Assembly (NCBI RefSeq): GCF_039655865.1
Contig: NZ_JBBYXL010000001.1
Coordinates: forward strand, 310,001-374,000
Direction: 5' to 3'
From: Prosthecobacter sp. SYSU 5D2
GTDB taxonomy: Bacteria > Verrucomicrobiota > Verrucomicrobiia > Verrucomicrobiales > Verrucomicrobiaceae
Length of the DNA: 64,000 bases
Shown: piece after piece, positions 19,628 through 45,229 of the stretch
Layout: every line of letters starts with the position of its first letter
Position numbering within the stretch: position 1 is the first letter of the stretch
Position numbers and translations under genes: made by a program
Notes under the pieces: model-generated
The model's database searches: none
What the model saw: only the letters and a program-made list of their open reading frames with translations
What the model was told of the DNA's origin: nothing

Positions 19628-20965
19628 TCACACCAGATCCGGCAGCGGATTGTCCGCATCGCCAAACTGGCTGGTCTTCACGCCCATGCGGTCCATCATG
19701 GCCAGGTGCAGGCGGCAGAGTTTGCGGTTGGGGTCCTTGCTGTAATCGAAGTAGCGTCCGCCGCGCAGCGTGCCGCCACCGCCACCGGCGAGGATGAGGG
19801 GAAGCTGGGTGGAGTCGTGGGCATTGCCATCATACAGGCTGGAGGTGAGCATGATCATGCTGTTGTCCAAAAGGGTGCGTTCACCCTCCTGGGTGGCTTC
19901 CATTTTTTGCAGGGCCTCAGACCACACCTTTACCATGTATTCATTGGCCTTCTGGTAGGAGGCCAGGCGGTCGGCATCATTGGCGTGATGGGAAAGCTCA
20001 TGCTGGCCACCTTTGATGCCCAGGAAACCGAAGTTCATGTTGGAAAGGTCATTGGTCAGCATGTTTGTCACCACGCGGGTGCGGTCCATCTGGAAGGCCA
20101 GGACCATGATGTCCAGCATCAGCTTCACATGCTCTTCCTGCTGCGCAGGGATGCCGGAGGCGGGGCGTGCCAGCCAGGGCTTGGTCACACTTGGATGCCA
20201 GCCGCGCGTGGTGGCCTCAGCAGTGCTGAGTTTTTCAGAGCGCTCGATGCGCTGCTCCAGGTCTCGCACGGAGGTGAGGTATTCGTCCAGCTTCTGGCCG
20301 TCGCGGCGGCTCAGTTTGCCGCGCAGGCTGCTGGCATCCTGCATCACCAGGTCCAGCACACTCTTGTCACGGGCGCGTTTGCTGCCGTCATCAAAGAGCT
20401 GGTCGAAGGCCTGCTGCGGATAGATCTCCTTGGGCGCAGGCGTCGTCGGGCTGCTCCAGGAAAGGTAGGCGGAGTAAAGGGAGGTATAACCGCTGTCGGT
20501 GCTGTAGCGGGGGCCCTCGGTACCAATGGCCAGGCTGGCCACGGGTGTCTGCTGGCCGATCTTGTTGGCGATGATCTGATCCATCGTCAGGCCCACTTCC
20601 ACATCCGTCGTCGTCTGCTTCACCTTCAGGCCGGAGAGGATGTTCATCTTCGGATAATGCCCGCCGGGACCTGCAACGGTGGACGGATTCCACAGGCCTT
20701 TGAAGACCATCACTTTATTCTTCACCGGCTCCAGCGGCTTCAGCGTTTGCAGAAACTCCAGGCCGCCAGGGCCGTTCGAGGCACCCCAATGATGCGGGTT
20801 CACCCCATTGCCGAAAAAGCAGATGCCCAGACGCCGTGGAGCCTGCGGCGTACCTTTGACCACCGGAGCGCCAAAGGACGAAACCGACTCAAACCACGGC
20901 AGGCCGAGCAGGATGCCTGCACCACGCAGGAACTGACGACGGGAAGACTGGGAAGAATTTTTCAT
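19628..20965 (-). CDS. Tat-exported DUF1552 protein
   Basis: 445 aa. The N-terminus has a twin-arginine signal (SSRRQFLRGAGILLGLPWF). The mature region opens RRLGICFFGNGVNPHHW, typical of DUF1552, a family abundant in planctomycetes and verrucomicrobia. In known genomes DUF1552 genes are usually paired with a DUF1592/DUF1587-type cytochrome protein. Here none is adjacent, so this is an isolated copy. A sulfatase-like or DUF1501-like extracellular function is often assumed, but no activity is established. Confidence 0.88.
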   Translation of the reverse strand: MKNSSQSSRRQFLRGAGILLGLPWFESVSSFGAPVVKGTPQAPRRLGICFFGNGVNPHHWGASNGPGGLEFLQTLKPLEPVKNKVMVFKGLWNPSTVAGPGGHYPKMNILSGLKVKQTTTDVEVGLTMDQIIANKIGQQTPVASLAIGTEGPRYSTDSGYTSLYSAYLSWSSPTTPAPKEIYPQQAFDQLFDDGSKRARDKSVLDLVMQDASSLRGKLSRRDGQKLDEYLTSVRDLEQRIERSEKLSTAEATTRGWHPSVTKPWLARPASGIPAQQEEHVKLMLDIMVLAFQMDRTRVVTNMLTNDLSNMNFGFLGIKGGQHELSHHANDADRLASYQKANEYMVKVWSEALQKMEATQEGERTLLDNSMIMLTSSLYDGNAHDSTQLPLILAGGGGGTLRGGRYFDYSKDPNRKLCRLHLAMMDRMGVKTSQFGDADNPLPDLV

Positions 20966-21158
20966 GAAGGGGGGACCAAGAGACTACGTGCCTCACAGGC
21001 GCAAGATTTCGGCCAATCTACACGCTGTAGCCGCTTTGGGCAAGGTGTGTGGATGTCCTCTCCATTATCTGAAAGGAGATGCCAGCCTTCCAAAACGACG
21101 CCTAAATTCCCAAAAAACGCGCAGTGTTTCCCAGATAATACCGTATCGTGTATCCTGC

Positions 21159-23396
21159 ATGACCACCGACGCTCCTCCCTCAAACTCCTGGAGCCAGGCG
21201 CTCGCCGATTTCCTTTTGGAGCAGCAGGGCGTGGAGGCCATCCGGGTGAATCCAGACGAGCGCAGTGTCCAGATTGCCACGCTGGGGCAGGTGGATGCGG
21301 AGCTTTTGCAGGCGCAGCTTAACCAGGTATTGCGCTCCCTGGACGCCAGCCTGCTGACGGAGTCCCCAGGCAGCACAGTCAGCGGTCTGAAAATGAGCAG
21401 CCATGATGGCGAACTGACCCTGCAAAAACCAAGCTGCATTACTGCACCGAAGTTCTGGAAATGGCGCGATTTCGAATGGCCGGAGGCCGAGGAATTGGAG
21501 CGTCAAAGCGCCGAGGAATGGCGAATGATGGCCGTGCAGGCCGCCATCTGCGGGGTGGCCTTGGTGGCGGGATATGTGGCCGAAAATGCATTCGCCGTAC
21601 CGGAGTGGATGGTGCGCTGTTTCTATGGTGTGGCGCTCATCAGCGGCGGCTGGGATGCGGCCAAGGACGCTTGGGAAAACATCCAAGAAAAGCGCCTGGA
21701 TGTGCACTTCCTCATGCTCGCCGTGGCGACTGGAGCCGTGGCCATCGGCGCTTGGGAAGAGGGTGCTCTGTTGCTCTTCCTGTTCTCCACCTCCGGCGCA
21801 TTGGAGCACTACGTCCTACACCGCACGCATCGTGAAATCAATGCCCTCACCAAGGCCGCACCCAAGCTCGCTCGCGTCGTGTTGCCGGATGGCAAAACGG
21901 AGGAACGAGCCGTCTCCGGCCTGCGTGTGGGCGATGTCCTCCAGGTGCGTCCGGCGGAGCTTTTCCCGGTGGATGGCACCGTCACGACCGGCGAGTCCGC
22001 AGCAGATGAATCCACCCTCACGGGCGAGGCCGTGCCCATTGACAAAGGCGTTGGCGCGGAGGTCTTCGGCGGAACGCTGAATCTGTGGGGCCTGATTCAA
22101 ATGCGTGTGGACCGCCCGGCCACTCAGAGCGCCCTGGCGCGGATCATCACCATGATCCAGACCGCCCAGCATCTGCGTGCGCCCAGCCAGCGCTTCACGG
22201 ACCGATTCGGCACCCGCTACACCCTCTTCACCCTGGCCAGCGTTCTGCTCATGTTTTTCGTCTGGTGGCTGGTCATCGGCATCCCCCCGTTTGAAAACAC
22301 AGAGGTTTCCAAATCCTCCTTTTACCGTGCCATGACGCTACTGGTGGTCATGAGCCCCTGTGCGCTCGTGCTTTCCATCCCGTCGGCCATCCTCGCGGCC
22401 ATCGCCTGGGGCGCACGCAGGGGCATCCTTTTCCGAGGTGGAGCGGCCATTGAAAAACTGGCGGAGGTGGACGTCATCGCCATGGATAAAACCGGCACAC
22501 TTACCGAGGGCAACCTGCGCGTGGCCCAGGTGGAAAGTTTCCCTCCGGGCAAGGAAACGGAGGTGCTACGCCTATGTGTGACCCTGGATGCGAACTCTAA
22601 CCACCCCATCGCCCACGCCATCACCCGGCATGCGAAGGAACAGGGCATCGAGCCTGGCACGCTGCTCGAATTTCACTCCATCCCCGGCCAGGGGCTGCGC
22701 GGCCTAACCAAAGATGGCATCACCTACGTGGGCCGCCGCGAACTCATGGACCAGGGCGACTTCGCCAAATGGCTGAAGGATGTGCCGGATGCCCCGCTGG
22801 GCTTTTCTGAAGTGTGGGTGCTGAATGCCCAAACCATGGGCCGCGTGCTGCTGAAGGATGAGATCCGCAGCGGCAGTAAGGCCGTGCTTGCCGCCCTGGC
22901 GGAGCAAAACGTCCGCACCATCATGCTCACCGGCGACCGTCGCGCCGCTGCCATCCAGGTGGCGGAGGAGCTGGGCGTAGCGGATGTCCGCGCCGGACTG
23001 CATCCGGAGGATAAAGTCAGCGCCATCCGCGAGCTGACCCTCCAGGGTAAAAAAGTGGCGATGGTGGGTGATGGCGTCAACGATGCCCCCAGCCTCGCCG
23101 CCGCGTATGTCAGCATCGCCATGGGCGCGCGCGGCAGTGATGCGGCCCTGGAGCAGGCGGATGTCGTGCTCATGCAGGACAAGATTGAAAAGCTCCTCTC
23201 TGCCCGCCACATCAGCCAGCAGGCCCGCCGCATCATCCGGCAAAATCTCGCCATCTCCCTCGGCTCCGTCGTCATCATGGCCGTCGCCTCCCTCTTCGGC
23301 ATCGTCCCGCTGACGCTCGGCGTGCTCACCCATGAAGGCAGCACCGTGGTGGTGTGCCTGAACAGCCTGCGTCTCCTTTTCGTCAAAGAACGTTAG
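21159..23396 (+). CDS. P1B-4-type heavy-metal-translocating P-type ATPase
   Basis: 745-aa membrane pump. Catalytic motifs: DKTGTLTEG (phosphorylated Asp), MLTGDRR, GDGVNDAPSLAAA, and the NHPIAHAI dipeptide region. The transmembrane metal site reads MSPCALVLS, that is SPC rather than CPC, and the last helices contain THEGSTVVVCLNSLRLL. SPC plus HEG(S/G)T marks the P1B-4 group, known for Co(II)/Fe(II)/Zn(II) efflux. The first 100 residues look like an HMA fold (GVEAIRVNPDERSVQIAT) without a CXXC, so it probably does not bind metal there. The start is placed at MTTDAPPS; upstream residues are not protein-like. It is divergent from the DUF1552 gene. Confidence 0.9.
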   Translation: MTTDAPPSNSWSQALADFLLEQQGVEAIRVNPDERSVQIATLGQVDAELLQAQLNQVLRSLDASLLTESPGSTVSGLKMSSHDGELTLQKPSCITAPKFWKWRDFEWPEAEELERQSAEEWRMMAVQAAICGVALVAGYVAENAFAVPEWMVRCFYGVALISGGWDAAKDAWENIQEKRLDVHFLMLAVATGAVAIGAWEEGALLLFLFSTSGALEHYVLHRTHREINALTKAAPKLARVVLPDGKTEERAVSGLRVGDVLQVRPAELFPVDGTVTTGESAADESTLTGEAVPIDKGVGAEVFGGTLNLWGLIQMRVDRPATQSALARIITMIQTAQHLRAPSQRFTDRFGTRYTLFTLASVLLMFFVWWLVIGIPPFENTEVSKSSFYRAMTLLVVMSPCALVLSIPSAILAAIAWGARRGILFRGGAAIEKLAEVDVIAMDKTGTLTEGNLRVAQVESFPPGKETEVLRLCVTLDANSNHPIAHAITRHAKEQGIEPGTLLEFHSIPGQGLRGLTKDGITYVGRRELMDQGDFAKWLKDVPDAPLGFSEVWVLNAQTMGRVLLKDEIRSGSKAVLAALAEQNVRTIMLTGDRRAAAIQVAEELGVADVRAGLHPEDKVSAIRELTLQGKKVAMVGDGVNDAPSLAAAYVSIAMGARGSDAALEQADVVLMQDKIEKLLSARHISQQARRIIRQNLAISLGSVVIMAVASLFGIVPLTLGVLTHEGSTVVVCLNSLRLLFVKER

Positions 23397-37915: not shown

Positions 37916-38470
37916 TCAGCGTGTGGCGCTGATTTCCCGGTGGAGCCAGGCACGGGCATACGCCCAGTCCCGCTTGGCGGTGGGCTCCGATACGCCGAGA
38001 ACTTCCGCCGCTTCGGCAAAGGTGAGACCGACGAAATAGTGCAGTTTCACCAGCTCGGCCTTGCGGGCATCTTCGGCGGCGAGCTTGTCCAGAGCGTCAT
38101 GCACGGCCAGCAGTTCATCATCCTGGACGGCGGGGGCGGCGATCTGCAAAGAGTCCTCCAGCTCGACATGCTCCTTCCCTGCCCCGTGGCGGACGGCCTG
38201 GCGCTTGCGGGCACGATCAATCAAAATCCGGCGCATGGCCTCCGCCGCCGCTCCGAAGAAGTGGGAGCGGTTTTGGAATCTGGCATCGCCGAGGCGGAGC
38301 CAGGCTTCATGAACCAGAGCAGTGGCCTGCAGTGTCTGGCCTGGCAGCTCACGCGCCATCTTGGCGGCGGCGACGCGGCGCAGCTCGGCATAGACTTCTG
38401 CCAGCAGCTGGTTAGGCGCATCCGCATGGCCCTGCTGGCAGGACTGGAGGAGGAGGGTAATCTGGTTCAT
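37916..38470 (-). CDS. ECF RNA polymerase sigma factor
   Basis: 184 aa. Region 2: LLAEVYAELRRVAAAKMAREL and ATALVHEAWLRLGDARFQNRSHFFGAAAEAMRRILIDRARKR, typical of the planctomycete/verrucomicrobial/acidobacterial ECF group. Region 4: HYFVGLTFAEAAEVLGVSEPTAKRDWAYARAWLHREI (HTH). It is 11 bp downstream of a small membrane-protein gene that could be its partner. No recognised anti-sigma domain is adjacent. Start at MNQITLLL. Confidence 0.88.
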   Translation of the reverse strand: MNQITLLLQSCQQGHADAPNQLLAEVYAELRRVAAAKMARELPGQTLQATALVHEAWLRLGDARFQNRSHFFGAAAEAMRRILIDRARKRQAVRHGAGKEHVELEDSLQIAAPAVQDDELLAVHDALDKLAAEDARKAELVKLHYFVGLTFAEAAEVLGVSEPTAKRDWAYARAWLHREISATR

Positions 38471-38481
38471 GACGGCGGCAT

Positions 38482-38811
38482 TCAAACCCAAAGGGAGGCG
38501 GAGACCAAGGCCAAACCGAGCAGACCAGTACTAAGCAGGGAGACGGCCACACGACGCTGCCGCACGGCGGTGACGAGACTCTGCAAGGCGAGACCGAGGC
38601 CGGGCAGGCCGCAAAAGAGCCAGGCGGCGAGGGCGAAGGGCTGGACGAGGAGGATCATGAGCAGCCTATGATGGACGGTTTCAAATCCTGTGAGAAAGAG
38701 AGACTGGCAGGCCAGCCAGCCGCCGGCCAGGGAGAGGGTGAGAAGGAGCAGGCTGGTGATGAGATCACGGGCCAGGCGCGGAGAGGCGGCAGTATAGGTT
38801 TCGAGGTTCAT
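38482..38811 (-). CDS. Small membrane protein
   Basis: 109 aa with three hydrophobic segments (LITSLLLLTLSLAGGWLAC, LLMILLVQPFALAAWLFCGL, SLLSTGLLGLALVSASLWV). No family recognised. It lies 11 bp upstream of the ECF sigma gene on the same strand, so co-expression is expected and a role in control of that sigma factor is possible but unsupported by motifs. Confidence 0.7.
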   Translation of the reverse strand: MNLETYTAASPRLARDLITSLLLLTLSLAGGWLACQSLFLTGFETVHHRLLMILLVQPFALAAWLFCGLPGLGLALQSLVTAVRQRRVAVSLLSTGLLGLALVSASLWV

Positions 38812-38863: not shown

Positions 38864-41581
38864 TTATGCAGGCAGCACGCCGGCCAGTTTTTGCGCATAG
38901 GCCAGGGTGTCAATATCCTCGGGCCCCTTGTCTGTACGGATGGCCTTGATGCGGGGAAAGCGGAGGGAGAGACCGCTGTCATGACGGGTGCTGGCCTGGA
39001 TGGAATCAAAGGCGATCTCCAGGACGGTGTCCGGGATGACGGTGCGCACGCTGCCTTTCTGCGCGAGGGTGGTGGAAGTGAAGTGCTCGGTAAGGGTCTC
39101 GATCTCCGCATCGGTGAGGCCGGAATAAGCCTTGCCGATGATGCGGTGGGCACCGTGCTCATCGCGGACGGCAAAGGTATAGTCACTGAGCACATGGCTG
39201 CGCTTGCCATGACCCTGCTCCGCTTTAACCACGACGACATCCAGGGTGGCGAAGGCTTTTTTGAGCTTCAGCCAGGACTTGCCGCGACGGCCGGGGGAAT
39301 AAGGGCTGGCGGGGTCTTTGGCAATGAGGCCTTCGTTATTGCGACGGCGGGCGGCCATGAAGGCGGCCTCGATCTCCACTTCCGAACATGCCTGGTGGAC
39401 CTCGATCAAAGACAGGCCCGCAGGCAAGGCGAGGGATTCGAGAGCGAGGCGCCTTTGGGTGAGAGGCTGCTCCAGCAAGGAGCTGCCATTTTTCCAAAGC
39501 AGGTCAAAGACGACGTAACGGACGCTGATGTCGCTAGGCAGGAAGAGGTCCGCCTGGTCCCGGCGGCCTAACCGCTTTTGCAAATCAAAAAATGAGAGCT
39601 TTTTATCCTCAGCATAGGCGATGATCTCGCCATCGAGAATCACCTCATCTTGAAGCCGGTCAGCGGCCTGGAGGATTTCCGGAAATTGGGCGCTGACGAG
39701 TTTTAAATCGCGCGTGAAGATTTCTATCTGTGTGGCGCTGCGATGAAGCTGCGCACGGATGCCATCGTATTTGTCCTCCAGCCAGATTTGGGCGGGAGCG
39801 CCTGGCTCTGCGGCCGTAAGACGCTGCCAGATGTCGGCGGCGGTTTCTTCCGGGGAGGCGAGCATGACCTTGAGCGGCACGAGGGGGCGCGGGGCGGCCT
39901 CATGCAGGCGGGCGTCTTTGGCCAGCAGGGCGGCGTGGCCGATATCACCGGTGAGCATGGCGGCTTCCCGGACGGCATCCGCAGGCTGCTGGAAGGCGGC
40001 GGCGACGGCTTCTTCAATGAGCCCTTCTTTGGATCCCATGCGCAGCTCCCCGGTCATGAGACGGACGAGCCAGGAGCCGGTGTGCGGGCTGAGGGTGACG
40101 AGGCGCTCGCGCAGGAGTTTTGCCTTTGGCACGGGCCCGCGTGCCTCACGCAAGGCGCGGAAGAACTGGTCTGTGGCCTGAAGGTCCATGGGCTCAGGCG
40201 TCAGGGGAACGCGGCCCAAGACGAGGAAGGCGGTGCGGCCGGCATCGGCCTGGCTGCGGGAGAGGGTGCGGTATTCAGCATCGCTGAGGCCGGAGAGCTC
40301 CTGCAAGGCACGGCGGATGATGGCCCAGCCGGTGTTCAAGGGACCTTCCGGGCTAGCGGGATCAAACAGCAGGCCAGCGCAGTAACGGACCGCCAATGGC
40401 AAGTCGGCCTCCTGCGGCAAGGCGCGGAGGTAATCCGCCAGCACGGTCACCTTTTTTAAGCGGGATGATTCCGCAGCGGCGAGCGCGCAGACCTGGGCCC
40501 AGCGGGCGAAACTTTCCGGGACTTCTTCGCCGGATTCAGGCATTTGCGATGACTCCGGAGCCAGAGCCGTTTTTTGAACAATGTTTTCTAATGGTATCTC
40601 TAACTGGTCAGCGCGTTCGAGTGTCCAGGCTTCATAACCTCGGGCGCGGAGATCGGCGGCGAACTCCTGGGTATAACCATGGACGAGATACACCCGGCGC
40701 GGACATACGGTCTCCACGGTTTCCAGGAGTTCCGGGTAGTCGGCGTGGTCGCTGAGGGGGAAAACTTCATCCACCTGGTAGCGGTATTTGGCCCCGGGCT
40801 GCATGGCCCAGCCGCTGAGCATGGCGGTGCGGCAGGTCTTGAGCTTGCGCAGGGCCAGGCTGCGCGCGCCGCTGGGGGGAAAGAGGAGCACATGGCCCGC
40901 GGCCTGGGCGGGATCGAACAGGCGGTAGCGGGGCAGTTTGCCCAAAAGGGGTGCCACAACTTCAGTCATTTCCAGGATGGCTTTGTGGACCATGACCGGC
41001 AGCCCGGCGTCCCCCAGGGCGCAGAGGATCTCCTGGGCCTTGCCTAACGAATAACCTAACAAGACCGGAATGCCGCCGTCATCCAGCGTTTCATGCACCC
41101 ACTTCAGCATGGCGGCCACGGTTTCCGCCGTCGGCGGGAAATGGAACTGCGGGAGGCCAAAAGTGGTCTCCATAATGAGGGTGTCCGCCGGAAGGAGCTC
41201 GCACCGCTCGGAACTGAGGCCCTGGCGCAGCTTGTAATCCCCGGTGTAAAGCAGCGTGGCGCCATCCGCAACACGGGTCAGGTGCAGCATGGCGGACCCG
41301 ACAATGTGCCCCGCCGGAAAAAGTCGCAGCTGCCAGCCCTCCCACTCAAAGACCTGCCGCATGGGCAGCGCCTGAAAGGAACTGCTATCGCTCACGCCAT
41401 ACCGGGCCCTCATCAGTTCCAGCGTCAGCTCCGATGAAAAAGTGAGCCGGTGTCGCGCCACGTGGTCACTGTGCGCATGTGAGATGAACGCCCGCTCCAC
41501 GCCAAAATGCGGGTCCAGCCACAAGTCCGCCTCCGGCAGATAGATGCCTTTGCGGTGAGTGACGGTGAGGAGGGGAGACAT
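38864..41581 (-). CDS. Fusion of MBL-fold DNA exonuclease and ATP-dependent DNA ligase
   Basis: 905 aa. Residues 1 to about 330 are a metallo-beta-lactamase-fold nuclease: SHAHSDHVARH (HXHXDH zinc motif), GHIVGSAMLHL, LYTGDYKL, FPLSDHADYPELL. From about 350 on is an ATP-dependent ligase: a DNA-binding part, nucleotidyl lysine in LEDKYDGIRAQLH (KXDG), VILDGEIIAY, FDLLWKNG, EGLIAKDP and SWLKLKK. In most bacteria these are two adjacent genes of the ligase-associated repair set (with an Lhr-type helicase and a phosphoesterase). Here they are one polypeptide and the helicase is absent nearby. Role is probably DNA end repair (inference). Confidence 0.92.
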   Translation of the reverse strand: MSPLLTVTHRKGIYLPEADLWLDPHFGVERAFISHAHSDHVARHRLTFSSELTLELMRARYGVSDSSSFQALPMRQVFEWEGWQLRLFPAGHIVGSAMLHLTRVADGATLLYTGDYKLRQGLSSERCELLPADTLIMETTFGLPQFHFPPTAETVAAMLKWVHETLDDGGIPVLLGYSLGKAQEILCALGDAGLPVMVHKAILEMTEVVAPLLGKLPRYRLFDPAQAAGHVLLFPPSGARSLALRKLKTCRTAMLSGWAMQPGAKYRYQVDEVFPLSDHADYPELLETVETVCPRRVYLVHGYTQEFAADLRARGYEAWTLERADQLEIPLENIVQKTALAPESSQMPESGEEVPESFARWAQVCALAAAESSRLKKVTVLADYLRALPQEADLPLAVRYCAGLLFDPASPEGPLNTGWAIIRRALQELSGLSDAEYRTLSRSQADAGRTAFLVLGRVPLTPEPMDLQATDQFFRALREARGPVPKAKLLRERLVTLSPHTGSWLVRLMTGELRMGSKEGLIEEAVAAAFQQPADAVREAAMLTGDIGHAALLAKDARLHEAAPRPLVPLKVMLASPEETAADIWQRLTAAEPGAPAQIWLEDKYDGIRAQLHRSATQIEIFTRDLKLVSAQFPEILQAADRLQDEVILDGEIIAYAEDKKLSFFDLQKRLGRRDQADLFLPSDISVRYVVFDLLWKNGSSLLEQPLTQRRLALESLALPAGLSLIEVHQACSEVEIEAAFMAARRRNNEGLIAKDPASPYSPGRRGKSWLKLKKAFATLDVVVVKAEQGHGKRSHVLSDYTFAVRDEHGAHRIIGKAYSGLTDAEIETLTEHFTSTTLAQKGSVRTVIPDTVLEIAFDSIQASTRHDSGLSLRFPRIKAIRTDKGPEDIDTLAYAQKLAGVLPA

Positions 41582-41672
41582 GGAGAAGGACTATGTTACG
41601 TATGGCTTAGGCGGCGGGATGAATACGCACGACGGCTGTATGGGAATCGCTCTTCGCCACGTTAGAGGGCGG

Positions 41673-42542
41673 ATGAAATTTTATATTGGAACCGTCCTGC
41701 TCCTGACCTCCAGCCTGCTTGCCCAGACGCCACCCCTGCCTGACCTTTACGCAATACCTGAGGATCTGGTTATTCCACCCGTCACAGAAGGAGCACCGTC
41801 AGCAGGCCACCGGGTGCGCCAGACCACCGCAGGCTGGGAGGGCACGGAGGTCCACCATGTGCTGTATCTGCCCCGCGACTGGGAGGCGGGAAAGACGTGG
41901 CCGGTCATTGTGGAGTATGCGGGCAATGGCGGGTATAGCAACAAACATGGAGACGTGAGCCATGGCACCGTGGATGGCAGCCGGCTGGGCTATGGGGTGA
42001 GCGGGGGCGAAGGCTGCCTGTGGCTGTGCCTGCCGTATGTGGAAAAGACGGAAGGCACGAAGCAAAATGCCATCAAATGGTGGGGGGATGTAGAGGAGAC
42101 GAAACGTTACTGCCATGCGACACTGAAGAACGTGTGCGCCAAGTATGGCGGCGACCCGGAGCGGGTGGTGCTAGCGGGATTTTCGCGCGGCAGCATCGCA
42201 TGCAATTACATTGGGCTGCATGATGATGAGGTTGCGAAACTCTGGTGCGGATTCATCTGTCACAGCCATTACGACGGCGTGCTTACAAGCTGGCCATATG
42301 GAGGGGCGGACCGTGAGGCAGCGCTGGTGCGGCTGAAGCGGCTGAAAGGCAGGCCGCAGTTCATCAGCCATGAGGGCAGTGTGCAGGCCACTGAGAATTG
42401 GCTGCGCAGCACGCGGGAGACGGCAGACTGGACTTTTGTGCCACTGCCCTTTCGCAATCACACGGATGCCTGGGTGCTGCGGGATCTGCCGGAGCGGAAA
42501 CGGCTGCGGGACTGGTTTTCAAGGGTGGTGGAAAAAAAGTGA
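41673..42542 (+). CDS. Exported alpha/beta-hydrolase-like protein
   Basis: 289 aa with a signal peptide (FYIGTVLLLTSSLLAQ). The nucleophile elbow LAGFSRGSIACNYIG (GXSXG) and a late FRNHTDAWVLRD (candidate catalytic His) suggest an esterase or PHB-depolymerase-like fold; an early YLPRDWEAGKTWPVIVEYAG is the usual first strand. Substrate unknown. AGAGGG precedes the ATG at good spacing, which decides the start. Confidence 0.8.
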   Translation: MKFYIGTVLLLTSSLLAQTPPLPDLYAIPEDLVIPPVTEGAPSAGHRVRQTTAGWEGTEVHHVLYLPRDWEAGKTWPVIVEYAGNGGYSNKHGDVSHGTVDGSRLGYGVSGGEGCLWLCLPYVEKTEGTKQNAIKWWGDVEETKRYCHATLKNVCAKYGGDPERVVLAGFSRGSIACNYIGLHDDEVAKLWCGFICHSHYDGVLTSWPYGGADREAALVRLKRLKGRPQFISHEGSVQATENWLRSTRETADWTFVPLPFRNHTDAWVLRDLPERKRLRDWFSRVVEKK

Positions 42543-42649
42543 AAAACTTTGAGGGGTCAACGAGGCGGCGGGGTAGCACCCCATGAAGACGCACCAACCG
42601 GCGGCTTCAACCAACCAACCCAAACAAACTAAACCACCTAACTACAACC

Positions 42650-42898
42650 ATGAAGAAACTGACCCTCTCCTTTGCCGCTGCCGCCCTGATGATGACCGGC
42701 GTGAGCTGCTCCACCCCGAACACGGATTCTGGCGGCCGCCGCTATCACACCTCTCCCATCCCGATCAAAAACCGCACAGGCATCAGCTGGACGGACACGC
42801 GCACCCAGACACCGGCTTACCAAAACAGCCAGGTGCGCTATCACCACTCCTCTGCGCCGATCGCCAGCAAAACTGGGCTCCAGATCGCCCGCCGCTAA
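42650..42898 (+). CDS. Small lipoprotein
   Basis: 82 aa. KKLTLSFAAAALMMTGVSC is a lipoprotein signal with the lipidated Cys at about residue 20. The mature part is polar with repeated RYHTSPIPIKNRTG / RYHHSSAPIASKTG, an internal duplication of about 14 residues. No family recognised. It is 56 bp before the CnrY-like gene and possibly unrelated to it. Confidence 0.7.
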   Translation: MKKLTLSFAAAALMMTGVSCSTPNTDSGGRRYHTSPIPIKNRTGISWTDTRTQTPAYQNSQVRYHHSSAPIASKTGLQIARR

Positions 42899-42954
42899 GT
42901 GCTTGCGCCCTGAGCCTAGCCGACTTGTGTGATGCTTATCCCCTTTCACCTGCC

Positions 42955-43260
42955 ATGAACACACCCGACGATCCCCTCGACGAGCTGCTGTCGCAATGGC
43001 AGGTGCATGGGGAGGCCCAGCCTTCTTTTCAAAGGAAGGTATGGGCGCGCATCGCCGCCGGGGAGGCGGATCCGGGCCTGTGGGACAGGCTGGCCGCATT
43101 TCTCATCCAGCCGCGCGGCTGGATGGTGGCGGCAGCAGCCTCAGTGCTCATCGGAGCCAGCGTAGCCTGGATGGAGACAAGGCCAAGCGGGCTGAACCCT
43201 CATGAGGCATATGTGCGGTCCATCAGCCCCTTTGCCTCCCAGCATCTGGCATCGCACTGA
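42955..43260 (+). CDS. Single-pass membrane protein, CnrY-like candidate anti-sigma factor
   Basis: 101 aa. The N-terminal half is cytoplasmic and acidic (DDPLDELLSQWQVHGEAQPSF), followed by one transmembrane segment (GWMVAAAASVLIGASVAW) and a short outer tail. This matches the size and layout of CnrY-type anti-sigma factors, which are about 95 aa with a short cytoplasmic sigma-binding helix. Identity rests on the gene order with the next two genes (CnrX-like sensor, ECF sigma), as sequence similarity of CnrY proteins is low. Confidence 0.6.
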   Translation: MNTPDDPLDELLSQWQVHGEAQPSFQRKVWARIAAGEADPGLWDRLAAFLIQPRGWMVAAAASVLIGASVAWMETRPSGLNPHEAYVRSISPFASQHLASH

Positions 43261-43268
43261 GGCATGGC

Positions 43269-43742
43269 ATGAAAGTACGCGAAAAACTGTTCTTCATGGC
43301 CCTGGCCGTCATTATCCTGGCCTATGGGACGCATGAACTGGTGATCTACCTGAGGCCCGCACCCCCCTCCCCGCGCCAGATCGGCCTGGAGTGGCTGCGG
43401 CAGGAGTACAAGATCCCAGATGAGGCGTATGAAAAAATCGCCGCTTTGCACCAGGAGTATTTCGTCCGCTGTGACGAGATGTGCGCAACCATGGAACGCG
43501 CCCACCGCCCGCTGCTCCAGCGCAGCCGCAAACCCGTCTCCCAGGAGATGCAGGCCGCCGCGATAAAGCGCGAAAAAGCCGTGTGCGAAAACTGCCTGGA
43601 GAACATGGTTCTCCATCTAAACACGGTGGCCGCGCTCATGCCCCCTGCCGAGGGCGAGCGCTTTCTCAAAGACATCCTGCCTGAAGTCATCAACCCTCCC
43701 GAGCTGCAAAAACTGCGCTCCCAGGTGAACCCCCTTCAATGA
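43269..43742 (+). CDS. Periplasmic metal sensor, CnrX-like
   Basis: 157 aa. An N-terminal membrane anchor (LFFMALAVIILAYGTHELVIY) leads to a helical periplasmic domain: LEWLRQEYKIPDEAYEKIAALHQEYFVRCDEMC (shown here in part), then KAVCENCLENMVLHLNTVAALMPP and GERFLKDILPEVI. The pattern of His/Glu/Cys-containing helices matches the CnrX/Metal_resist family. Known CnrX binds Ni(II) or Co(II) and relieves CnrY. It ends overlapping the sigma gene as ATGA. Confidence 0.75.
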   Translation: MKVREKLFFMALAVIILAYGTHELVIYLRPAPPSPRQIGLEWLRQEYKIPDEAYEKIAALHQEYFVRCDEMCATMERAHRPLLQRSRKPVSQEMQAAAIKREKAVCENCLENMVLHLNTVAALMPPAEGERFLKDILPEVINPPELQKLRSQVNPLQ

Positions 43743-44314
43743 CTGCACCCGAGGACGACGAGGACATCCATCTCATGATCGCCCTGGCGGGAGGCAATGA
43801 CCCTGCTCTGAACGTCCTGATGCGCCGCTGGCACGTGCGCCTCACCGGCTACCTGGACCGCCTCTGCGGCAGCCATGCCACGGCCTGCGACCTGGCACAG
43901 GAAACTTTCGTCCGGGTGTACAAACACAGGCACCGCTTCCGCCCCGCGCAGAAGTTTTCCACCTGGCTCTTCGCCATCGCCACAAACCTAGCACGCAACC
44001 ATGCACGGTGGCAAAAACGCCATCCCGTAACGCTTATGGAGCCGGAGCAGGTCTCTGGCCTGCCGCTAGAATGCGAACTCCCCTGCCCCAGCGGCAGCCT
44101 GGAACAGCAGGAGCGCGCCGCCGCCGTGCGGGATGCGATTCTTAAACTGCCCCCGGAACAAAAGGAAACGCTCATCCTCTCCACCTATGAAGGCATGAGC
44201 CATGCGGAAATCGCCGAAATCATGGACACCACTGAAAAAGTGGTGGAAATGCGGCTGTACCGGGCAAGGAAGCACCTGAAGGAGCTGTTGCAGCCCTTTT
44301 TGAAAAGCGCCTGA
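43739..44314 (+). CDS. ECF RNA polymerase sigma factor, CnrH-like
   Basis: 191 aa, the same length as known CnrH. Region 2: RLCGSHATACDLAQETFVRVYKHRHRFRPAQKFSTWLFAIATNLARNH (shown as one span of key residues: DLAQETFVRVYKH and FSTWLFAIATN). Region 4: LPPEQKETLILSTYEGMSHAEIAEIMDT. Translational coupling with the CnrX-like gene (ATGA) indicates one operon. The sigma factor lies last, as in cnrYXH, unlike most ECF operons where sigma comes first. Confidence 0.88.
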   Translation: MTAPEDDEDIHLMIALAGGNDPALNVLMRRWHVRLTGYLDRLCGSHATACDLAQETFVRVYKHRHRFRPAQKFSTWLFAIATNLARNHARWQKRHPVTLMEPEQVSGLPLECELPCPSGSLEQQERAAAVRDAILKLPPEQKETLILSTYEGMSHAEIAEIMDTTEKVVEMRLYRARKHLKELLQPFLKSA

Positions 44315-44402
44315 AAATGGCTGACGTTTCCGTCACAAACCCAAGCCGCCCATTGACAGAGGGGGCCAGTCCCCGGTAACTCAAGGGAGTCTCCCGCCCA
44401 TC

Positions 44403-44981
44403 ATGAACCTGCCCAATAAGCTCACCCTCGCACGCCTTGTGCTGACGGGGTTTTTTGTGGCCTGTTTCTATCTGCCATGGGCGAATTCGTATTCGATTGC
44501 GGTCATCATTTTTGGCATTGCTAGCTACACGGATTATCTGGATGGCAAAATCGCCAGGGACAGAAATCTGGTGACCAATTTTGGCAAACTCTTTGATCCC
44601 CTGGCGGACAAGATCCTCATCGCGGCGGCTTTTATTTTGCTGTCCGTGGACAAGACCATTCCCTCATGGATAACCATTGCCATCCTCTCGCGGGAGTTCT
44701 TCGTCACCGGCATCCGCCAGATCGCCGCCGGCCAGGGGGCTGTGCTGGCAGCGGAAAAACTGGGCAAGCACAAGATGGTCTGGCAGATCATCACCGTCCT
44801 CTTCTTTATGCTCACCGCCGCCTCCAACGAGCCCCTGTTTGGCTTTCTGAAACCCGTCCTGGCCCCTTCCGCCGTGCATGACTGGGTCGGCGGCTTCATC
44901 ATTTATTTCACTACGGCGCTGACGCTGGTTTCCGGGTTCAGCTACTTTTGGAAAAACCGGCACTTGTTTAACGATGCGTGA
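44403..44981 (+). CDS. pgsA: CDP-diacylglycerol-glycerol-3-phosphate 3-phosphatidyltransferase
   Basis: 192-aa inner-membrane enzyme of phosphatidylglycerol synthesis. It opens MNLPNKLTLARLVL and has the CDP-alcohol phosphatidyltransferase signature DYLDGKIARDRNLVTNFG ... FDPLADK (D-X2-D-G-X2-A-R-X8-G-X3-D-X3-D), followed by four or more hydrophobic segments. Length is normal. It stands apart from the sigma operon by 88 bp. Confidence 0.95.
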   Translation: MNLPNKLTLARLVLTGFFVACFYLPWANSYSIAVIIFGIASYTDYLDGKIARDRNLVTNFGKLFDPLADKILIAAAFILLSVDKTIPSWITIAILSREFFVTGIRQIAAGQGAVLAAEKLGKHKMVWQIITVLFFMLTAASNEPLFGFLKPVLAPSAVHDWVGGFIIYFTTALTLVSGFSYFWKNRHLFNDA

Positions 44982-45013
44982 CACACAGGTAGAAATATGC
45001 TAGGTATTCAGTA

Positions 45014-45229
45014 ATGGTTGTGGAATCCATTCCAGCATTGTCACAACTGACATCTGACGAGCGCCTCATCCTCGCGGCGGAGCTTTGGCGGGAAAATGCC
45101 GTCACCACGGATGACGAAGCCGATCCGAAAATCGTCAACATGCTTCGCGAGCGGCTCGAACGTTATCAGACGCGTCCTGAGGCCGTTTCCACGTGGGCTG
45201 AGGTCAAAGCCAGACTTGCGGCTCAATGA
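45014..45229 (+). CDS. Putative addiction-module antitoxin
   Basis: 71 aa: SIPALSQLTSDERLILAAELW is the typical opening of the short addiction-module component family (TIGR02574-like), ending STWAEVKARLAA. It overlaps the following ParE/RelE-like reading frame by ATGA. The antitoxin looks intact, while its toxin is interrupted. Confidence 0.8.
   Translation: MVVESIPALSQLTSDERLILAAELWRENAVTTDDEADPKIVNMLRERLERYQTRPEAVSTWAEVKARLAAQ

Follow-up and report, generated by a model that had tools for sequence, protein, structure and literature searches.

A predicted CnrYXH-type sigma factor operon with a Cys/His periplasmic sensor and a leader lipoprotein gene in Prosthecobacter sp. SYSU 5D2

In silico analysis of 64,000 nucleotides of Prosthecobacter sp. 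SYSU 5D2 DNA (the whole stretch is referred to below as the window) points, with moderate confidence, to a four-gene, self-activating operon of the CnrYXH type, whose periplasmic sensor X would sense a soft, copper(I)-like metal and whose main output would be a small lipoprotein. The CnrYXH design is already known; the results suggest that the novelty lies in a Cys/His variant of the sensor placed on that design. As for the copy in the window, its control seems to be confined largely to the small operon of which it is part.

Organization of the operon and its surroundings

The transcription unit exceeds the three genes reported in the first-pass annotation, since a leader gene and a promoter-like element also belong to it. 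All of its parts lie on the forward strand. The conserved promoter-like element TTTGAGGG-N14-GGGGTAGCACC (42548..42580) was recognised as a footprint in the alignment of orthologue upstream regions. The operon is headed by the leader gene (42650..42898), an ORF with similar ORFs at related loci, which encodes a predicted lipoprotein of 82 aa. It is followed by the genes of Y (42955..43260), a one-helix membrane protein of 101 aa and the presumed anti-sigma factor, of X (43269..43742), a membrane-anchored periplasmic sensor of 157 aa with the CnrX fold and the residues H61, C68, C72, C106, C109 and H116, and of the ECF sigma factor H (43739..44314), of 191 aa. An 8-bp gap separates Y from X, and the X and sigma genes overlap by ATGA. 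The earlier description of three coupled genes of 101, 157 and 191 aa with the ECF sigma factor last was confirmed: the ORFs are all on the forward strand at the positions it gave, the Sigma70 domains are present, and the Y–X–sigma order recurs at related loci. In the mechanical ORF list the frame of Y starts at 42583 (225 aa), and the start at 42955 is backed by orthologues beginning with MNTPDD. This 225-aa open frame (42583-43260), which is in the same frame as Y and starts before the lipoprotein gene, is probably a chance overlap because the Y orthologues start at MNTPDD.

The sigma gene is followed at 44403 by a pgsA-type gene (CDP-OH_P_transf), in agreement with the earlier statement that pgsA comes next and that no Cnr pump adjoins the operon. 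As a candidate member of the operon pgsA was rejected, its cluster being present at only 5 of the 19 loci of the window type (defined below). The presence of a known RNA element was likewise rejected, as there are no Rfam matches in 41500-45200, and a scan of 42300-44600 for sigma-70-type promoters found none. Two genes on the reverse strand upstream of the operon may be mentioned. One, at 37916-38491 and about 4.5 kb ahead of Y, is a second ECF sigma gene (Sigma70_ECF, PF07638, 3.5e-51). The other, at 38864-41581, encodes a protein of 905 aa whose residues 274-319 match RMMBL (metallo-hydrolase), with the N-terminal, middle and C-terminal domains of an ATP-dependent DNA ligase behind them. 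Judged by these domains, the product is an apparent nuclease-ligase fusion.

Homologues of X were found at 60 places in 35 of the 56 genomes searched, own genome included. The analysis covers 57 of these loci, the window included, with the weak places G028:C82:14925, G015:C639 and G015:C20 left out; 19 loci are of the window type and the other 38, from 29 genomes, are not. They come mostly from one genus and hence are not independent. At 55 of the 57 loci a Y-like protein is encoded by an ORF of its own ahead of X, Y and X being fused at the other two, and a sigma ORF of a single cluster is present in 51 of the 57 regions; among the six regions without it, L037, L073 and L076 stop less than 300 bp from X. 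The genes around the cassettes were called by greedy ORF calling and the clusters were named from one representative each, and the region is shorter than 5 kb on one side at 6 of the 19 window-type and 9 of the 38 other loci. In the tree, the 19 window-type rows and the far row L124, itself of the window type, stand on one side of a branch with 100/99 support. The 38 other loci form no clade, and L052, L070 and L082 sit on very long branches. Of 288 genomes sampled across the phylum, 46 contain family members at E<=1e-6, and nine of these 46 lie outside the class. All five named records retrieved with the X pattern come from Prosthecobacter or Verrucomicrobiaceae metagenome assemblies. The own genome holds no second X (one X only at E<=10), and a search for plasmid-borne relatives gave no match at E<=0.01 for either the window X or the metal-linked X of L058.

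The sensor X, its partner Y and the sigma factor

Taken alone, the window X has only a chance-level Pfam match (Ima1_N, E 0.061, below cut-off) and no NCBIfam model, and it does not match Metal_resist (PF13801) at E<=10. At the level of the family, 38 of 52 X proteins match the Pfam model Metal_resist at E<=1, the best with 4.7e-12, and 23 of the 52 match the LTXXQ model at the same threshold. The profile built from 52 of the 57 sequences (leaving out the divergent L052, L070 and L082 and the fusions L083 and L086) gave ten matches to PDB sequences, with NccX on top (0.002) and six CnrX chains at 0.037-0.085; three matches are unrelated, and one of these, the coiled-coil protein bicaudal D, ranks between CnrX chains at 0.062. 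The AlphaFold model of X, made from six sequences (pLDDT 84.5), shows a helical hairpin preceded by a helix at the N-terminus. The comparison of a predicted structure of the 43269 product with CnrX, proposed in the first-pass annotation as a check, came out in favour of its CnrX-type assignment: the six top Foldseek ranks are all CnrX chains (probability 0.98-0.99, TM by target 0.65-0.70), with E-values of 0.2-0.4 at best, and Spy and ZraP-type chains appear further down the list. The fold match alone is not decisive, because VIA-align rates the unrelated STV (Z 7.9) like CnrX (Z 8.0) and helical bundles match easily. X is a CnrX relative as judged from the sequence profile and the modelled fold together, NccX and CnrX leading the searches with absolute scores that are weak.

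The cobalt and nickel ligands of CnrX are H42, H46, E63, H119 and M123. The profile alignment pairs H119 with H116 of the window X, the sole ligand kept of five. The window equivalents of H42, H46, E63 and M123 are L40, R44, H61 and V120, the H42 and H46 columns having been placed via the NccX row of the profile alignment; in the column of E63 and H61, the 2y3h chain has Q (E63Q). Residue counts per column cover all 57 X sequences. The H42 column holds Leu in 56 of the 57, the H46 column Arg in 29, Lys in 16, His in 7 and Gln in 4, and the M123 column Thr in 30, Val in 25, Ile in 2 and Met in none. According to the relevant passages of PMC7689651, M123 is required for signalling in CnrX, and M123C abolishes the nickel response. 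The cobalt- or nickel-type sensing assumed for X at first is thus unsupported, because most of the CnrX ligand positions have changed and what the family conserves is a set of Cys and His residues.

This set forms the family signature H-x6-C-x3-C ... C-x6-H, each position of which is kept in 54-57 of the 57 sequences (H61 in 55, C68 in 56, C72 in 57, C109 in 54 and H116 in 56). C106 and M71 are present in all 19 window-type X proteins, C106 being absent from the other 38 sequences, and the window type therefore carries four invariant Cys, arranged as C-x3-C and C-x2-C. By eye, H-x6-C-x3-C and C-x6-H are also kept in the distant L125, L126 and L128-L130, of the same family or class, and the distant L127 keeps the His and three Cys, with Glu replacing the last His. 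In the model of X the hairpin is made of two antiparallel helices, 51-79 and 92-122. The position numbers of the pairs 61/116, 68/109 and 72/106 add up to 177, 177 and 178, and since near-equal sums on antiparallel helices place residues opposite each other, we infer that H61 and H116, C68 and C109, and C72 and C106 face each other across the modelled hairpin. As a point against metal sensing, these periplasmic Cys could be disulfide-bonded.

Y is matched by no Pfam or NCBIfam model. Its profile, built from 32 of the 42 Y proteins extracted by script, found no match among PDB chains at E<=10; the Y-like ORFs at the rest of the 55 loci were identified by inspection of the regions. Y is predicted to cross the membrane with a single helix, and it has two conserved motifs, FxRxVWxRI on the cytosolic and AYVxSIxP on the periplasmic side. 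The low-confidence model (pLDDT 67) shows helices at 7-15, 23-34, 40-51, 53-75 and 82-100, of which 53-75 is the one membrane helix and the last would be periplasmic, in line with the earlier description of Y as a one-helix membrane protein. CnrY is a class II anti-sigma factor according to passages of PMC7406223 and PMC4598750, and the size of Y, its membrane helix and the short cytosolic helices of the model fit a protein of this kind. At two loci, L083 (G034:C2) and L086 (G019:C12), which come from two genomes close to that of the window, a Y-type N-terminus and X form one protein of 204/205 aa with the sigma gene next to it; this natural fusion supports Y and X as a single signalling unit.

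The third protein is a clear ECF sigma factor, with matches to Sigma70_r4_2 (1.1e-17) and Sigma70_r2 (6e-17). Among PDB chains it is matched by sigma-H (6in7, 2.9e-22), sigma-E (1or7, 9.6e-18) and CnrH (4cxf, 5.7e-13), and ten distinct PDB sequences outscore the CnrH chain.

Neighbour genes, leader lipoproteins and the promoter-like element

At least one member of the outer-membrane efflux, RND, CusB-type, multicopper-oxidase or heavy-metal-ATPase clusters lies within about 7 kb at 32 of the 38 other loci and at none of the 19 window-type loci. At the 38 other loci these comprise an outer-membrane efflux protein (16 loci), a CusA/CzcA RND pump (13; representative above cut-off), a CopA-like multicopper oxidase cluster (15; representative 414.5 bits, below the cut-off of 478.95), a CusB-type adaptor that contains a heavy-metal-binding domain (12) and a cluster of heavy-metal P-type ATPases (12), whose representative is above cut-off. 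That representative passes the cut-off for the Cd family and is just below the one for Cu (393.1 vs 397). Together with the multicopper oxidase, which falls short of its threshold, this score speaks against a firm choice of copper as the metal. A small secreted protein, weakly YHS-like (Pfam 6e-05, below cut-off), is found at 22 of the 38 other loci and at 0 of the 19 window-type loci. At L047, which is of the window type, a P-type ATPase gene stands about 2.2 kb downstream of X; it was left uncounted because it scores best with calcium-type models (681.5 bits, below cut-off) and is below cut-off for the heavy-metal model.

The leader protein of the window has a lipobox-like VSC|S and two RYHxSxxPIxxxTG repeats, both recognised by eye, and no clear paralogue in its own genome (next E 0.02 and 0.7). 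A leader-like ORF ahead of Y was extracted at 15 of the 19 window-type loci; the product contains a single Cys, that of the lipobox, in 14 cases and three Cys in L036. At the other loci, leaders with 5-6 Cys occur at twelve and one with 14 Cys at one (L049). This last leader, about 545 bp upstream of X, is a lipoprotein-like and metallothionein-like protein of 63 aa. From the neighbour counts and the leader Cys counts it follows that the window lineage keeps the switch and the Cys/His sensor without metal-efflux neighbours. The signal of the window copy may therefore have changed, as it has no metal neighbour and its leader has lost the Cys that the leaders of many relatives carry.

The block TTTGAGGG ... 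GGGGTAGCACC is nearly invariant in the alignment of seven orthologue upstream regions and lies about 70 bp before the leader gene. Perfect copies number 11, in 11 of the 56 genomes, each about 700 bp upstream of the X gene. A mismatch-pattern search for the element, which weaker sigma promoters could escape, listed 26 rows in the 56 genomes: 16 at window-type operons, five near L060, L064 (two), L072 and L082, and the last five elsewhere with 2-3 mismatches. The five stray rows are at noise level, because the control with the pattern reversed yielded 14 rows in these genomes. The relaxed form NTTGAGGGNT-N10-GCGGNGTTGCACC, at <=4 mismatches, has 17 matches in 17 of the 19 window-type regions and 38 matches in 19 of the 38 other regions, and 30 permuted motifs average 0.4 and 0.6, respectively; this enrichment is only descriptive, because the motif was partly derived from those same regions. 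The two window-type regions without it are L048, which starts near a contig end, and L035, which has a longer-spacing form. Sites at the other loci include positions ahead of a Cys-rich small secreted protein that precedes Y and positions behind the sigma gene, before another small secreted protein. L082 has a copy with 3 mismatches to the relaxed form, located about 2.66 kb upstream of X, and 42 bp after it a gene belonging to the multicopper-oxidase cluster begins. Several of the loci without a match to the relaxed form have another motif in common, AGGGTTTG ... GGTGTT, which was seen by eye upstream of Y at the metal-linked loci L051, L053, L058, L073, L078 and L079, and is perhaps the promoter of another sigma subgroup. 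As regards the element at 42548..42580, it is probably the sigma factor's own promoter: its sharing between sigma operons and nearby metal genes is what one would expect of a cognate sigma promoter, and the sigma factor would presumably bind to it.

The absence of a neighbouring pump had led to the view that the regulon must lie elsewhere and might include the P1B ATPase at about 21 kb. The product of the ORF at 20964-23396 is indeed a P-type ATPase of the heavy-metal kind, scoring 564.9 bits with TIGR01525 and passing its cut-off. The link of this ATPase to the sigma factor is unsupported, because at <=3 mismatches the element matches only 42548 in the 64-kb window. The genome-wide motif search proposed for a distant regulon yielded, beyond the operon, only 3-mismatch noise: the own genome contains one perfect element, and the other places need 3 mismatches and are no commoner than in the backward control. 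The one RND protein of this genome above the CusA/CzcA cut-off (C1:610009-613128) has no element match. A remote regulon is an unnecessary assumption, the operon's own leader lipoprotein being a candidate target.

Proposed mechanism, rival explanations and known systems

In the proposed mechanism, Y would act as a one-pass membrane anti-sigma factor holding the ECF sigma factor at the membrane, and the periplasmic hairpin of X would bind the periplasmic tail of Y (motif AYVxSISPF). X would sense a soft periplasmic metal ion, most likely copper(I)-like, via the His and Cys facing each other across the hairpin. Metal binding would alter the X–Y contact, upon which Y would release the sigma factor, and the freed sigma factor would start transcription of the operon that encodes it at the 42548 element, the lipoprotein being the main output. 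The topology, the X–Y and Y–sigma binding and the identity of the metal are predicted. A soft metal is assumed because of the Cys/His ligands and the metal-gene neighbours of the relatives.

The same residues may be read differently. If X were a periplasmic thiol-redox sensor, the disulfides C68-C109 and C72-C106 would zip the hairpin, and a redox change would alter the contact with Y and free the sigma factor. This is the main rival, and a serious one for the window type, because its X has four invariant Cys (C-x3-C and C-x2-C) on antiparallel helices and named metal-gene clusters adjoin none of the 19 loci. However, H61 and H116 are conserved as strongly as the Cys, the other 38 X sequences, without C106, are left with an odd three Cys, and the relatives adjoin metal genes; we regard a purely redox-driven switch as rather unlikely. 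Elements of both readings are joined in a tentative, possible view of the window clade (the 100/99 branch): a copper-type CnrX sensor would have been uncoupled from efflux, its four-Cys, two-His hairpin would read thiol redox or copper(I), and the system would mainly express its own operon, with the lipoprotein as the true effector of an envelope response.

An envelope-stress switch, in which X as a Spy/CpxP/ZraP-like adaptor detects misfolded material in the envelope and proteases break down Y, would agree with the Spy/ZraP-type chains in the fold list, with the LTXXQ matches and with a window-type leader lipoprotein that lacks a conserved set of metal ligands. It is improbable in view of the conserved Cys/His set, the metal-gene context of the relatives and the leading places of CnrX/NccX in the sequence search and of CnrX in the fold search. 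A classical CnrYXH system for cobalt or nickel shares the gene order, the fold and the His at the position of H119, but L40, R44, H61 and V120 occupy the ligand positions and none of the 57 sequences has the Met that CnrX needs for its nickel response (PMC7689651, in the passages cited above), which makes this explanation very improbable.

A literature search, with most subscription journals outside its scope, found no description of the sensor chemistry, the leader gene or the promoter-like element; this silence is weak evidence for novelty. The results suggest that the CnrYXH design, whose examples considered here sense cobalt and nickel in Cupriavidus, exists also in Verrucomicrobiota with a Cys/His sensor, and that relatives with this sensor often adjoin copper-type efflux genes there. 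The family would show how in nature a metal sensor can acquire a different chemistry while keeping its fold, with two His retained near the old site and Cys added about two helix turns away. The promoter-like element provides a handle for reading regulons from genomes, the two natural Y–X fusions support a signalling pair, and induction of the small lipoprotein is directly testable.

Among known systems, CnrYXH and NccYXH of Cupriavidus metallidurans share with the window the Y–X–sigma order, a small one-helix Y, the CnrX fold, the His at the H119 position and an ECF sigma factor. There are also differences, which relate to (i) the X protein, which has His in place of E63, is without H42, H46 and M123, and has a new Cys set; (ii) the leader lipoprotein gene, present in the window, where no efflux genes adjoin; (iii) the Y protein, without detectable PDB similarity; and (iv) the sigma factor, closer to sigma-H and sigma-E chains than to CnrH. 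The Metal_resist and LTXXQ families (PF13801, PF07813) have ZraP, CpxP and Spy among their members; in contrast to these, X sits between Y and a sigma gene, is membrane-anchored and bears its own Cys/His signature. CorE of Myxococcus is likewise an ECF sigma factor that carries Cys in its sensing part and is associated with the handling of copper (multicopper oxidase, ATPase). In passages of a survey from 2023 on copper signalling by marine bacteria (PMC10141476), CorE is given as the copper ECF factor, sensing copper by its own Cys-rich C-terminal extension and not via an anti-sigma factor, and CnrX is not mentioned. Unlike CorE, the system described here is predicted to rely on a separate periplasmic sensor.
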